From: Arthrobacter sp. S41
GTDB lineage: Bacteria > Actinomycetota > Actinomycetes > Actinomycetales > Micrococcaceae
Direction: 5' to 3'
DNA: 64,000 nt
NCBI RefSeq assembly: GCF_004320535.1
Contig: NZ_SIHY01000001.1
Location: 2,170,001 to 2,234,000 of the forward strand
Part shown: one piece after another, positions 6,667-61,626 of the stretch
Numbering within the stretch: the stretch's first letter is position 1
How the letters are laid out: each line of letters starts with the position of its first letter
Made by a program: the position numbers and the translations under genes
The notes under the pieces: generated by a model
Seen by the model: the letters and a program-made list of their open reading frames with translations, nothing else
Databases searched by the model: none
Told to the model about the DNA's origin: nothing

Positions 6667-8253
6667 ATGACACATCCATATTTTGAACCCGATGACGATG
6701 ATGAACATCGCCTACCGCTGGACCCGCCTGCCACACGCAGCGAGTCACAGTCAGACTCCTTCTTCACCGACCACCTAGAGCACCAGATGTTCTACGGACC
6801 AATGAAGGAACTAGTTGATGAGCTCTTCAACGCCGGTCCGCTCAACGGCCCTGGTGATGGTCTGGCTCGACTAGAGAAAGTTCAGAAGCTGGACAGCATG
6901 CTCTCCGCGGTCAGCGCCGCGATCATGGCCGACAGTGTGGAACAGGTTGCTCAAGCTTTCGCCGAGGACACCGTCACCAAACCCCACTTTGAAACCGAGC
7001 AGGAACGACGCGAACGGCTCTGCGCGAACTACTACCGCGTTGATCCAACTAGTGACCAGGTCATCACCTCCAACTTTGTCGCTGAAGCTGCGATCGCGCT
7101 TCGAGAAACAACCGAAAAGGCTCGCGGACGCATGTTCACGGCCAAAGGGCTGCGCCACGTTTGCCCAGAAACCCTTCAGGCCTTGGCCGCTGGACAGATC
7201 ACTGCGGCCGCAGCGCGGGCCATGGTGAAGTATTCGCAGGACCTGACGCAGGAACAGATCAACCTGATGCAGGAGAATCTGTTGCCCATTGCGGCTACCG
7301 CTAGTGATGAGACCATCACGCAGCGCATCCGTCGCTTCCATGATCAGGTCCGCCCGGAGTCCGCGGACGCTCGCCACAAGAAAGCCGCGGATGCTAGAAA
7401 GGTAAGTAGCTGGGATTTGCAGGATGGGATGTCCGCGTTGAAGCTCGTGGCACCAAGCGTCAATGTGAAGTCCATAGTGAACACGCTCAAGTACGAGGCC
7501 ACCTTGCATAACGATCCCGAAGACACCCGCACTCAAGCACAGCTAGAAGCAGACATCTTCTGTGATGCGCTGATCAATGGATGGCCCACCACCAATGGCA
7601 CACCGCTCAAGCCTCGGGTAGTCGTCACGATCCCTGCCCTGCAGATGATTGCCAATCCAGACCGTGCCCTGGCGGACTTGGAAGGGTACGGGCCGATCCC
7701 CATGGGTGCGGCATTACAAATTGCCAAGGATGCTCCATCCATCATTCCGATGCTCACCGATCCATTCAGCGGAGCCGTGATGGATGTTGGCCGCAAACGC
7801 TACAAGCCCACTCGGGTGCTCAAGGAATTCCTCCGCGCTCGCGACCAGCACTGCTGCTACCCCGGATGCCGACGCACCGCAGATAACTCCGAAGTTGATC
7901 ACGTCGACGCCTGGGAAACCGGCGGACACACCAACCGTGCCAACACCGAATTACTGTGCAAGCAGCACCAGATGTTCAAGCACGCTTTGGGCTGGAAGGT
8001 CATCAACCGCCCCGACGGTTCTAAGTGCTGGCGCACACCGCACGGCCTAAATTCCCTCGTCGTTCCCGGCAGCGTAGACAATGTTCAGCACTTTGAGCAC
8101 GCCAATGATCGCTGCCCCGAACGCAAGGTCCATTTGACCCCGGCAACGCTACGCGTGCTGGGCCACCCCACCACGGTTAGCGGTGGCGACGTAAGAATCA
8201 CGATTGACGACCCCAACAATGATCCGCCCGGACAGCATCCGGACGCGGCCTAG
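6667..8253 (+). CDS. DUF222 / HNH endonuclease domain protein (13E12-like)
   Basis: A 528-residue protein of the actinobacterial DUF222-HNH group (13E12 repeat family in mycobacteria). The long N-terminal region is helical and charged; the HNH module lies at about 390-440: a CxxxC-type zinc pair (CCYPGC), SEVDHVDAW, then NTELLCKQHQMFKH with the second Cys-His pair. The HNH core is intact, so nuclease activity is possible, but the family's role is not established; these genes occur in many copies in actinobacteria and may be selfish or defence-linked. It starts at 6667 (MTHPYFEPDDDDEHR), divergent from the DUF1801 gene. Three copies of one palindrome lie right after its stop. Confidence 0.85.
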   Translation: MTHPYFEPDDDDEHRLPLDPPATRSESQSDSFFTDHLEHQMFYGPMKELVDELFNAGPLNGPGDGLARLEKVQKLDSMLSAVSAAIMADSVEQVAQAFAEDTVTKPHFETEQERRERLCANYYRVDPTSDQVITSNFVAEAAIALRETTEKARGRMFTAKGLRHVCPETLQALAAGQITAAAARAMVKYSQDLTQEQINLMQENLLPIAATASDETITQRIRRFHDQVRPESADARHKKAADARKVSSWDLQDGMSALKLVAPSVNVKSIVNTLKYEATLHNDPEDTRTQAQLEADIFCDALINGWPTTNGTPLKPRVVVTIPALQMIANPDRALADLEGYGPIPMGAALQIAKDAPSIIPMLTDPFSGAVMDVGRKRYKPTRVLKEFLRARDQHCCYPGCRRTADNSEVDHVDAWETGGHTNRANTELLCKQHQMFKHALGWKVINRPDGSKCWRTPHGLNSLVVPGSVDNVQHFEHANDRCPERKVHLTPATLRVLGHPTTVSGGDVRITIDDPNNDPPGQHPDAA

Positions 8254-8281
8254 GCGTCAAGCCCCATCGAGGGGTGTGCAG

Positions 8282-8300
8282 TGACGGAAGTTTTCCGTCA
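8282..8300. repeat. 19-bp palindrome, copy 1
   Basis: TGACGGAAGTTTTCCGTCA: 8-base arms TGACGGAA / TTCCGTCA around GTT. Starts 29 bases after the DUF222-HNH stop codon. Confidence 0.8.
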
Positions 8301-8431
8301 TCACGATTGACCCAGATCTCCCATACGACCCGAGAATGCAGCAGCATCAGGAAAGAAAACGGTGCTTGCTGCAAATTGTGCTGTGCCCAACGCCTTCACT
8401 CGTTGAGTCCATTGAGTGCGCCGAGCACGGA

Positions 8432-8450
8432 TGACGTAAATTTTCCGTCA
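8432..8450. repeat. 19-bp palindrome, copy 2
   Basis: TGACGTAAATTTTCCGTCA: same element with one arm mismatch (T for G at the sixth base), centre ATT. It lies 150 bases after copy 1. Confidence 0.8.
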
Positions 8451-8505
8451 GTATCGTCCCCACTTCATCCCACCCTTTACTGCGGACTTTTCTCGTTGCC
8501 CGGCA

Positions 8506-8524
8506 TGACGGAAATTTTCCGTCA
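8506..8524. repeat. 19-bp palindrome, copy 3
   Basis: TGACGGAAATTTTCCGTCA: perfect 8-base arms, centre ATT. It lies 74 bases after copy 2 and about 105 bases before the MFS start, so it could overlap that promoter. Confidence 0.8.
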
Positions 8525-8628
8525 GTGAACGAGAGCTAGAGGATCCACATTAAACAGCTATCGCTGTCCTGACCGGCCAGAGTATCCTGTTGCTACAACC
8601 ACTGGCACCAACTAGAGCAGGTCACCTC

Positions 8629-10053
8629 ATGAGTGACGAGCAAACTGACAATTCGACACCGCCCGACAACGCGACGCGCGTGGTGCCGGCCGATGGTCAG
8701 CGTAGTTTTATGCATATTCTGATCAACACCGCGATCGCCAACTTCAGCACAAGCTTCCTGTGGTTTGCACTGACCTTCTGGGTTTATCTCGAAACTCAAA
8801 ACGTGATGGCTACCGGCATTATTGGCGGTGCGTTCATGTTGCTGATTGCCGTGTTCTCCATGGTTTTTGGCACCATCGTGGACAACCACCGCAAGAAGTC
8901 CGTGTTTGTATTCTCGGCAATGATCACCGCAGTCACGTTCAGCTTGGCCGGACTGATCTATCTTTGGTTACCTACAAAGGACATCCTGAATGTCGGCGGA
9001 TGGCAGTTCTGGCTCTTTTGCCTGGTGATCCTCTTTGGGGCCATCGTTGAACAGATGCGTGGAATCGCTCTGTCCACAACGGTCACGCTGCTAATACCCC
9101 AAGAACGTCATGCCAACGCCAATGGTCTGGTTGGCACGGTGCAGGGCATCGCGTTTATCATCACCAGCGTTTTTAGTGGTCTTGCCATCGGCTGGTTGGG
9201 GATGGGGTGGACGTTGGTCATTTCCATCGCGATGGTGGTGCTGACCATGCTGCACTTGGTGGGGATTTCGATTCCGGAAGAGGAACCTGAAAAGGAAGAA
9301 GGCCGCACCAAAACCAGCGATCTGCGTCTCGGATTCACCACGGTAATGGCCATCCCAGGACTGTTCGCGCTGATCATCTTCTCGATGTTTAACAACTTCA
9401 TCGGTGGCACATACATGGCGTTGATGGATCCCTACGGGTTGACCATCATGTCCGTCCAGTCGTGGGGATTGACCTTTGGATTAGCTTCCACCGGGTTCAT
9501 TGTTGGCGGTTTGTTGATTGCCAAATTCGGATTGGGCAAAAACCCGATTCGCACCATGCTCTGGCTGGTAGCAGCGATGGGTCTACTGGGCGCAACATTC
9601 ACGATTCGCGAATGGACGTGGCTCTACATCGTGGGAATCTGGCTGTACATGATGCTCATTCCAGCCGTTGAAGCCTCGGAACAAACAGTGATACAAAAAG
9701 TGGTGACTTTCCGCAGGCAGGGTCGAGTCTTCGGCTTTGCCCAGATGATGGAGGCCGCGGCCGCGCCGATTACCGCATTCCTCATTGCACCGCTGGCGCA
9801 GTATTGGATCATCCCGTACATGCGTAGCGACGAGGGAACTACGCAACTGGGGTGGTTGCTCGGCGACGGTCAGGCCCGTGGCATTGCCTTGATCTTCCTT
9901 GTCGGAGGGCTGATCATGATCTTGGTGGCATTCTTAGCTATGGGCACCAAGCAGTACCGCAAGCTCTCCACAATTTTCCAAGCAGAGGAGCCCACAACAC
10001 TTCAGGAGCAAGAACTTGGCAACAACCCAGAAGACCCTTCCCACCGACGTTGA
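8629..10053 (+). CDS. MFS transporter (exporter-like)
   Basis: A 474-residue inner-membrane carrier with about twelve hydrophobic helices in two halves. The loop between helices 2 and 3 reads IVDNHRKKSV, a degenerate MFS motif A (normally GxLaDrxGrrr). The overall look fits the MFS group of macrolide/siderophore-type exporters; the substrate is not readable. I chose the ATG at 8629 (MSDEQTDNSTPPD) rather than the one at 8590, whose extra residues look unstructured. The gene runs 38 bases into the next gene, so the two are co-transcribed. The upstream region carries three palindromes, possible operator sites. Confidence 0.8.
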   Translation: MSDEQTDNSTPPDNATRVVPADGQRSFMHILINTAIANFSTSFLWFALTFWVYLETQNVMATGIIGGAFMLLIAVFSMVFGTIVDNHRKKSVFVFSAMITAVTFSLAGLIYLWLPTKDILNVGGWQFWLFCLVILFGAIVEQMRGIALSTTVTLLIPQERHANANGLVGTVQGIAFIITSVFSGLAIGWLGMGWTLVISIAMVVLTMLHLVGISIPEEEPEKEEGRTKTSDLRLGFTTVMAIPGLFALIIFSMFNNFIGGTYMALMDPYGLTIMSVQSWGLTFGLASTGFIVGGLLIAKFGLGKNPIRTMLWLVAAMGLLGATFTIREWTWLYIVGIWLYMMLIPAVEASEQTVIQKVVTFRRQGRVFGFAQMMEAAAAPITAFLIAPLAQYWIIPYMRSDEGTTQLGWLLGDGQARGIALIFLVGGLIMILVAFLAMGTKQYRKLSTIFQAEEPTTLQEQELGNNPEDPSHRR

Positions 10054-60564: not shown

Positions 60565-61626
60565 TTACTGAGACTTTGGAGGTGCCGTGCTTGCGCGAAT
60601 GACCAGCGTTGGAGCGATCACCTTTGGGGTTTTATCGGCGGTGACACCTTCGAGCAATTCCGTGAGTGCTGCATGGCCGACATCCCTAAAAGGCTGACGA
60701 ACAGTGGTCAGCGATGGGATAAGGAAATTAGAAATCTGCAGATCGTCAAAACCAATCACCGAAACGTCCGTTGGCACCTCCACTCCGGCTTCCCAGAAGG
60801 CGCGCAAGATGCCAGTGGCCAGATAATCATTGGCGGCAAACACGGCGGTCACTTCCCCAGCGCGCACCGAATCGACCAGCCTCTTGCCCGCCTCATAACC
60901 GCTCGGTGCCAACCAAGATTCGGCAGGCACTTCGATGACCGGAGCTTGAGCTTCCAGCATTTTTTCTTGCCAGCCGATTTGGCGTTCAGTGGCGTCAAAC
61001 CAGCCGGTTGGTCCAGAAACATGGGCGATTTTGCGGTGACCTAAAGCCAAGAGATGGCCAGTAGCTATGCGCGCGCCTTCACGCTGGTCAACATAGACGT
61101 AATGGGCCGGATCTGATTCGGGCACCGTGGTGCGAGCTGCGACAACCACCACCGGAATTTTGAGCGCCGCATCGTCCAAGGCGTCAATCACCTTTTCGAA
61201 CGGCGCAACCATCACCACGCCATCCACACCTTGGTCAACCAAGTGATTCAAAGCTTCGGTTGAGCTGTGGGCGTCGTAGCGATCCAGGGCGGTCACGGTC
61301 ACGAAGTAGCCTTGCGCGCGGGCAGCAGCTTCGATGGCTAGGACGGTGGATTGCGGTCCGAAAAACTCACTACCGATGGTCAAAATACCAATGGTGCTGG
61401 AGTGCGATGTGGCAAGTGCGCGGGCAGCTCGATTGCGACGATATCCAAGTTGACGGATTGCTTCCATCACCTGATCACGCGTTCCGGCTCTGACGTTTGG
61501 GTGGTCGTTGAGCACGCGTGAGACAGTCTGGTGCGACACCCCTGCCAGGGCCGCCACATCCGCCATTGACGGGGGCCTGTTACTTGGGTGGCCTTCACCG
61601 GGCTGAGCAATGTTCACAACGGTCAT
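60565..61626 (-). CDS. LacI-family regulator, probable arabinose/galactose repressor
   Basis: 353 residues from ATG 61626. HTH: SMADVAALAGVSHQTVSRVLNDHPNVRAGTRDQVMEAI, then a sugar-binding domain (TIGILTIGSEFFGPQSTVLAIEAAARAQGY, AVFAANDYLATGILRAFWEAG, VIGFDDLQISNFLIPSLTTVRQP). Its gene lies upstream of araB and has the same palindrome in front of araB and of the SBP, so I infer it represses both. The start is uncertain: other starts at 61668 and nearer the HTH exist, with no clear ribosome site. Confidence 0.85.
   Translation of the reverse strand: MTVVNIAQPGEGHPSNRPPSMADVAALAGVSHQTVSRVLNDHPNVRAGTRDQVMEAIRQLGYRRNRAARALATSHSSTIGILTIGSEFFGPQSTVLAIEAAARAQGYFVTVTALDRYDAHSSTEALNHLVDQGVDGVVMVAPFEKVIDALDDAALKIPVVVVAARTTVPESDPAHYVYVDQREGARIATGHLLALGHRKIAHVSGPTGWFDATERQIGWQEKMLEAQAPVIEVPAESWLAPSGYEAGKRLVDSVRAGEVTAVFAANDYLATGILRAFWEAGVEVPTDVSVIGFDDLQISNFLIPSLTTVRQPFRDVGHAALTELLEGVTADKTPKVIAPTLVIRASTAPPKSQ

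Follow-up and report, generated by a model that had tools for sequence, protein, structure and literature searches.

The window, the 64,000-nucleotide stretch of DNA analyzed here, contains a gene for a DUF222-HNH protein followed by an MFS transporter gene that starts at about position 8629. Three copies of a short palindrome sit between the two genes. The genome comprises 3.47 Mb on 7 contigs. Its genus label, Glutamicibacter, is inferred from the eight named relatives of the gene, whose records are under Glutamicibacter or Arthrobacter. The features discussed below are as follows.

6667..8253, plus strand: DUF222-HNH gene, 528 aa (Pfam DUF222, E 9.8e-18)
6901..7356, plus strand: candidate ParB/Noc-like helical domain, residues 79-230 (fold taken from a predicted model)
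7852..7983, plus strand: HNH nuclease motif, residues 396-439 (Pfam and PHROGs HNH matches)
8282-8300, no strand assigned: site 1, TGACGGAAGTTTTCCGTCA, 0 mismatches; a comparable near-stop site lies behind 22 other clade genes
8432-8450, no strand assigned: site 2, TGACGTAAATTTTCCGTCA, 1 mismatch in the pattern search
8506-8524, no strand assigned: site 3, TGACGGAAATTTTCCGTCA, 0 mismatches in the pattern search

The original prediction described TGACGGAA-N3-TTCCGTCA as occurring three times downstream of the DUF222-HNH gene. The pattern is found at 8282, at 8432 (with one mismatch), and at 8506. Its copies start 150 and 74 nt apart, as described. An alternative fit has nine-base arms and one central base, TGACGGAAA-T-TTTCCGTCA, in which case copy 1 is mismatched once, at the center. 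The stop codon of the gene is 8251-8253, and site 1 begins 31 nt past its first base. A promoter-like site was not found between the gene and the MFS gene. A fourth match in the 64-kb window, at 61451-61469, has two mismatches and is consistent with chance at that level. In 100 dinucleotide shuffles, the mean was 0.35 matches at up to three mismatches and the maximum was 3; four matches were reached in none. A chance origin of the triplet was rejected on the basis of these shuffles and of the genome counts, gene-end controls, and motif-free search given below.

The palindrome had also been noticed nowhere else in the window. This holds at up to one mismatch, but the 3.47-Mb genome has 12 places at up to two mismatches. 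Seven of these match at up to one mismatch, including the window triplet, and a reversed control pattern gave no place in the same genome at up to two. The dispersed copies, termed A-type after the gene, are located directly past the stop codon of an FAD oxidase gene, between convergent GH32 and DUF6350 genes, inside the intergenic gap of a divergent MFS/epimerase pair, and 5' of a glycosyltransferase gene.

Across the genus, the A-type motif is present at up to one mismatch in 7 of 18 genomes, which are exactly those with an A-type gene (at least 73% identity), and in none of the remaining 11. A genome-wide count and a link to HNH genes had been proposed as a check; the copies are few, and 11 of the 23 in the genus stand behind the A-type HNH gene. 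Many scattered copies without a tie to HNH genes, or a lack of conservation in strains that keep the HNH gene, had been named as outcomes against the idea. Neither appeared, and all seven genomes with an A-type gene have the motif. Four of the other copies are one common place within a reading frame in four species, which is taken for a coincidence. In G012, this common place is the sole match at up to one mismatch; copies at its own locus have two to three mismatches, and one further copy there, a base shorter, was seen in the sequence. The reversed control of the genus scan matched one place in one genome (G008), and a closely similar pattern was found in none of 40 genomes outside the genus. 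The A-type gene of G001 is cut at contig ends (L084) and was left out, and G007 and G009 have only a C-type gene at E values up to 1e-50. In another genome, a perfect A-type palindrome with 12-bp arms falls within a 105-aa reading frame that has no Pfam match (L014, G006:C11:590344).

The window gene belongs to a clade of DUF222-HNH genes in Glutamicibacter. All 26 examined loci of this clade have AT-centered TGA-n13-TCA palindromes 3' of the gene, whatever gene comes next. Orthologs and paralogs share one palindrome design: TGA, three variable bases, an AT-rich center, three variable bases, and TCA. In 23 of the 26 loci the first site lies no more than 36 nt from the stop codon, and in the other three it starts from about +157 or +204; in a 700-nt scan, the three D genes have 3-4 sites each, the first at +157, +157, and +204. 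In the gene tree, the 26 genes form one group with support of 99/96, and the C genes (two groups) and the outgroup from genus g44 fall outside it. The simplest reading is that the array trait arose once.

A fixed test was devised after the arrays had been read. It calls for TGA-n13-TCA, no more than 70 nt from the stop codon, in which A/T fills five or more of the 7 central positions and five or more of the 8 arm pairs are matched. It was passed by 23 of the 26 clade genes and by 0 of the 15 remaining C genes. As controls, 0 of 12 C-type genes of genus g44 and 0 of 179 other gene ends passed, and the background was 1 of 1780 windows. Two of 30 wider DUF222 loci passed, both of which are the G003 and G017 loci again. 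In 700-nt stretches, there are 58 matches in 16,100 nt downstream of A, B, and E genes (a few being overlapping registers), 11 in 2,100 nt downstream of D genes, and 1 in 28,210 nt upstream of all. A motif-free search for repeated palindromes was positive downstream in 21 of 25 clade loci. It was negative for all 25 shuffled stretches and all 25 clade upstream stretches, as well as downstream of 16 C genes (with the locus of G008 counted among them) and 27 other DUF222 genes. Upstream, the same search gave a repeated family in 2 of 16 C stretches and in 3 of 27 stretches of the wider DUF222 set, where upstream was taken as the DNA ahead of the domain match.

The E genes of G003 and G017 occupy the C-gene position, ahead of the same RNA gene, whose first 30 bases were sought and found in five loci. 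The gap from the stop codon to the RNA gene is about 720 nt in these two genomes, with the palindromes inside it, and about 100-130 nt in the three C loci that were checked. Judged by genome comparison, the palindromes belong to the DUF222-HNH gene and not to the MFS gene, because the arrays persist throughout the clade whichever gene follows.

The C-type DUF222-HNH gene adjoins the RNA gene, which we take to be the 4.5S RNA gene ffs, in both Glutamicibacter and g44 (L070-L081, the C clade of L033-L036, L098, L099, and L182-L193). For a family regarded as mobile, this is a stable position. Five of the 15 C loci (G000, G006, G011, G013, and G015) have one TGA-n13-TCA site at +653 to +671. This site is of the TGAAC type, is at a near-constant place, and is apparently inside the gene past the RNA gene, presumably a glutamyl-tRNA synthetase-like gene. 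It may be either an old site or a chance product of the coding sequence.

The site sequence varies between paralogs, and copies within one locus are mostly alike. Locus by locus, the prevailing bases at positions 4-6 are CGG in A loci (AGG in G012); CAR/CTG in G011, G013, G015, and most B loci; NTG in G005 and G010; and TCA in the E loci of G003 and G017. In G006B they are ACR; four copies changed together there, and three of them are identical. Many copies are imperfect, with 41 of 69 array sites having six or fewer of the 8 arm pairs. In the arrays of several loci, sites are repeatedly spaced by about 135-140 and 72-84 nt though the intervening DNA has diverged, possibly reflecting the geometry of a complex.

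B-type sites at up to one mismatch are located at A2/B loci in 18 of 19 cases, the other being at a contig end. E-type sites are found at 17 distinct places in G003 and 18 in G017 (own count), with 5 and 3, respectively, at the E locus, and some fall within long reading frames. These counts may include sites of the D gene, since the search at two mismatches also takes in TGAAC sites similar to the D-type arrays of G003 and G017. Against the paralog rule, an exact E-type palindrome occurs once in G016, which has no E gene, and an E-type match at two mismatches occurs once in each of G004, G005, and G012. Reversed controls for the B-type, E-type, and G006B-type searches gave no match in all 18 genomes. 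One E-type site (L141/L148) is near TCGAACATGTGTTCGA, which in our judgment resembles a LexA box, 5' of a DUF6504 gene; AlkA and SNF2 genes are found close to other E-type sites.

Conservation is higher in the sites than in the surrounding DNA. Pairwise identity is 70% in site columns and 34% in other columns of the A-clade loci, and 63% and 42% in the B loci, in alignments partly guided by the sites, which favors the site columns. Between sister species, dispersed sites keep 15-19 of 19 bases and their flanks are 40-79% identical, in seven regions picked since both species had a dispersed site. Because they are better conserved than spacers and flanks, the sites look to be in use rather than decaying. 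At the FAD oxidase, the palindrome of G000 and G006 stands where about 11 of 18 species have another gene (by eye). A small gene between the FAD oxidase and an aldehyde dehydrogenase (L194-L211) seems, also by eye, to be absent in G000, G006, G004, G012, G003, G017, and G009, with the palindrome at the junction in G000 and G006.

The DUF222-HNH protein has two recognizable parts. Credible Pfam matches are limited to DUF222 and HNH. The HNH match of the window protein scores 20.4 bits, slightly below the cut-off of 21.4, and residues C396, C401, H412, N426, C431, H434, and H439 are invariant in 35 of 35 aligned relatives. A sequence search of the PDB yielded only two matches, a weak one of the HNH part to a Cas9 (E 0.097) and another at E 1.5. 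For three proteins, PADLOC gave no defense-system match and NCBIfam no match. In a search for viral relatives, none of 77 pattern-matching stretches encodes one.

The N-terminal part is predicted to be helical. The full-length model is of low quality, with a mean pLDDT of 57 and the helical region better, and a domain-only model (residues 28-245) is good, with a pLDDT of 81 and a pTM of 0.72. For the whole protein, the top row in Foldseek is a designed cage and ParB appears first at rank 7; in VIA, ranks 1-9 are Noc, ParB, and Spo0J domains, some of them site-bound (Z 6.8-8.9, next 6.3). For the domain, ParB, Noc, and Spo0J take all of VIA ranks 1-9, over 94-110 residues (Z 6.7-9.0, next 5.8). 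VIA re-ranks the list of Foldseek only; with helical models, its Z scores below about 13 may carry no meaning, and by its own notes such models may score this high from arrangement alone. The first seven Foldseek rows for the domain are ParB or Spo0J, with a best probability of 0.94; the best ParB E-value is 0.26, not significant, and ParB-family rows have TM-scores of about 0.24-0.38 and rmsd values of 5-16 Å.

Sequence profiles were also compared. The full-length A1 protein against 18 actinobacterial ParB domains gave only a three-column match, which is not significant. The trimmed domain aligns end to end with the ParB profile at P 0.042 (probability under 1%), likewise not significant, and other regions give P 0.42-0.65. 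No ParB family, whether CTPase or HTH, is among the 25 of 26 families listed by Pfam for 35 members at E values up to 10. Overall, the N-terminal DUF222 domain is consistent with a ParB/Noc-like fold in the predicted models. The fold receives more trust because the site arrays were found before it and independently of it. In the excerpted text of PMC7383237, ParB and Noc proteins read short palindromes and switch specificity by few changes.

Protein columns were correlated with site class, and the putative recognition helix was not singled out; its best column (154) ranked 25th, behind many columns elsewhere in the protein. Residue 154 is K in CAR/CTG loci, G, A, or S in CGG loci, and H only in G006B. 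Its role as specificity determinant was dropped, as clade history confounds the correlation and other columns correlate better.

The favored explanation is that the palindromes are probably cognate, parS-like sites of the adjacent protein, in which a ParB/Noc-like domain would be fused to an HNH nuclease. Binding of the palindromes by this protein is itself rated somewhat above an even chance. The N-terminal DUF222 half of the protein would form a helix-turn-helix domain of the ParB/Noc kind, which as a dimer would grip the TGAnnn-AT-nnnTCA palindrome, read as DNA. The C-terminal HNH domain may then cut or nick at or near the bound DNA. Each paralog would retain its own version of the site, clustered 3' of its gene, and in some lineages sites would also be kept at scattered, mostly intergenic places. 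The array may serve as a platform for loading, titration, or self-regulation, or as a source of the scattered copies. Comparison of loci and species establishes three parts of this picture at the sequence level: the clade-wide association, the paralog-specific sequences that are mostly alike within a locus, and conservation above the intervening DNA. Recognition sites of the HNH protein, one of three ideas in the original prediction, are the best supported of them, as the array tracks the HNH clade through paralogs and species.

An unlikely alternative is a selfish system of the REP/RAYT kind. The palindromes would be tiny non-autonomous elements, nicked or cut by the HNH nuclease and copied by repair or replication. 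The array behind the gene may be the source and the scattered copies the offspring, which is compatible with the cognate-site explanation. Scattered copies do occur in gene-bearing lineages. They make up 4 of the 7 A-type sites of G000 and, outside the E locus, 12 of 17 E-type places in G003 and 15 of 18 in G017 (own count of distinct places). Copies in one locus are alike, and the array of G011 expanded by apparent tandem duplication. In the portions of PMC2817692 cited here, RAYT genes likewise co-vary with their repeats, and the REPs of some species are not genome-wide. However, copy number is low, a palindrome of the gene's own type is found upstream in only 1 of 23 loci, and B-type sites were not seen dispersed beyond the A2/B loci and the one contig end. 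In the seven regions, dispersed sites hold matching positions in sister species and are conserved above their flanks, as for used sites. The empty-site comparison, made at the oxidase site alone, gave a related imperfect sequence in G004 and G012 and no clean insertion. The earlier idea of intergenic elements moved with the genes fits in part: A-type and E-type copies are dispersed, but several stand at the same place in sister species.

RNA hairpins are a less probable account still. As terminators or message-end stabilizers, they would be unconnected to the activity of the HNH protein. Sites directly past stop codons suit this role, as do some dispersed copies in longer inverted repeats between convergent genes (L004/L018 and L132/L135). 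As RNA, 8250-8640 folds better than most shuffles (z -2.21, with 2 of 100 equally good). Against hairpins, neither a gene-strand terminator-like match nor an Rfam match was found between the gene and the MFS gene, and mismatched arm positions do not favor G-U on the gene strand (18 G-U, 31 A-C, and 87 other). The sequence itself is conserved, beyond pairing, and the palindrome test was passed by none of the 179 other gene ends.

Operators for the MFS gene had also been proposed, and it is very improbable that an unrelated regulator uses the sites to govern this gene and a small regulon. Palindromes in clusters are a typical operator layout, and the array, as read from the sequence, is upstream of the MFS gene in the seven A-clade genomes; nevertheless, arrays of the same type are kept behind paralogs with other neighbors, dispersed copies stand by unrelated genes, and some sites are between convergent genes. 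A common regulon of the dispersed sites was rejected, since the Pfam matches of the scanned neighbors show no theme. Least probable is an inert hitchhiking repeat, kept alike within loci solely by duplication and gene conversion: the array of G011 looks expanded by duplication and the G006B copies changed in concert, but distant copies have the same sequence and sites are conserved above spacers across species, which is unexpected if they are inert.

DUF222 is still labeled by Pfam as a domain of unknown function. Genes with this domain are common in this branch of the Actinobacteria. A DUF222 match is found in 63 of 80 genomes drawn from the family of the window, with up to 32 matches per genome. 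G021 and G025 have 32 each, a strong expansion of the family. If the favored explanation is true, a large family without known function gains a fold and a DNA target. A fold proposal together with a defined, paralog-specific DNA target makes the DUF222 family testable. In the open-access literature, palindromes with DUF222-HNH genes were not found among the matches listed, in a search with subscription papers mostly outside it.

The known systems most like this one are ParB-parS and Noc-NBS. The parS sites cluster near parB, and clustered palindromic sites near the gene, a trait of the ParB family, are likewise seen in the sequences of the clade loci. Other likenesses are short palindromic sites and related proteins with switched sites (sections of PMC7383237). 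The candidate DNA-binding domain has a predicted shape that is similar by structural ranking, though not by E-value. In contrast to ParB and Noc, the protein here has no ParB profile match and has an HNH nuclease instead, and the sequence relationship is not significant. The sites are also 3' of the gene and paralog-specific.

REP-RAYT systems, as outlined in parts of PMC2817692 and PMC3733652, share a chromosomal nuclease-type gene, co-varying cognate palindromes, and scattered copies. Co-variation of palindrome and protein is found here by inspection; shared descent may also account for it. By the same parts of these sources, the differences are an HNH domain in place of a tyrosine transposase, one-sided sites, the lack of a GTAG head, and an AT center. 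Copy number is about 3-18 here, whereas REPs often number tens to hundreds; G000 has 7 A-type sites, and the highest counts are the 17 and 18 E-type sites of G003 and G017. RAYT genes are flanked by two inverted REPs, one per side; here a palindrome of the gene's own type stands upstream in 1 of 23 loci in a 600-nt scan (210 nt in one). Because Pfam ParB profiles, a tyrosine (IS200/IS605-type) transposase, and two-sided flanking are all absent, the array was filed neither as parS nor as REP-RAYT.

The 13E12/REP13E12 repeats of mycobacteria are long and contain the gene. Their proteins likewise combine DUF222 and HNH and are classed among repetitive elements in the excerpt of PMC10589994. Fusions of a ParB-CTPase fold to HNH also join a ParB-related module to a bacterial HNH domain, according to portions of PMC12704722. 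That survey covers the CTPase fold, and its main text is without the word DUF222; the resemblance here is to the HTH part.

A broader reading is held tentatively, at slightly less than even confidence, from sequence comparison and predicted models. DUF222 would be a ParB/Noc-like sequence-reading domain, and DUF222-HNH proteins would be site-specific nucleases. One Glutamicibacter clade would have a fast-diverging, centromere-like target array 3' of the gene, and the recognition code of DUF222 could be read from genomes. Such an arrangement would be a third solution beside ParB-parS and RAYT-REP.
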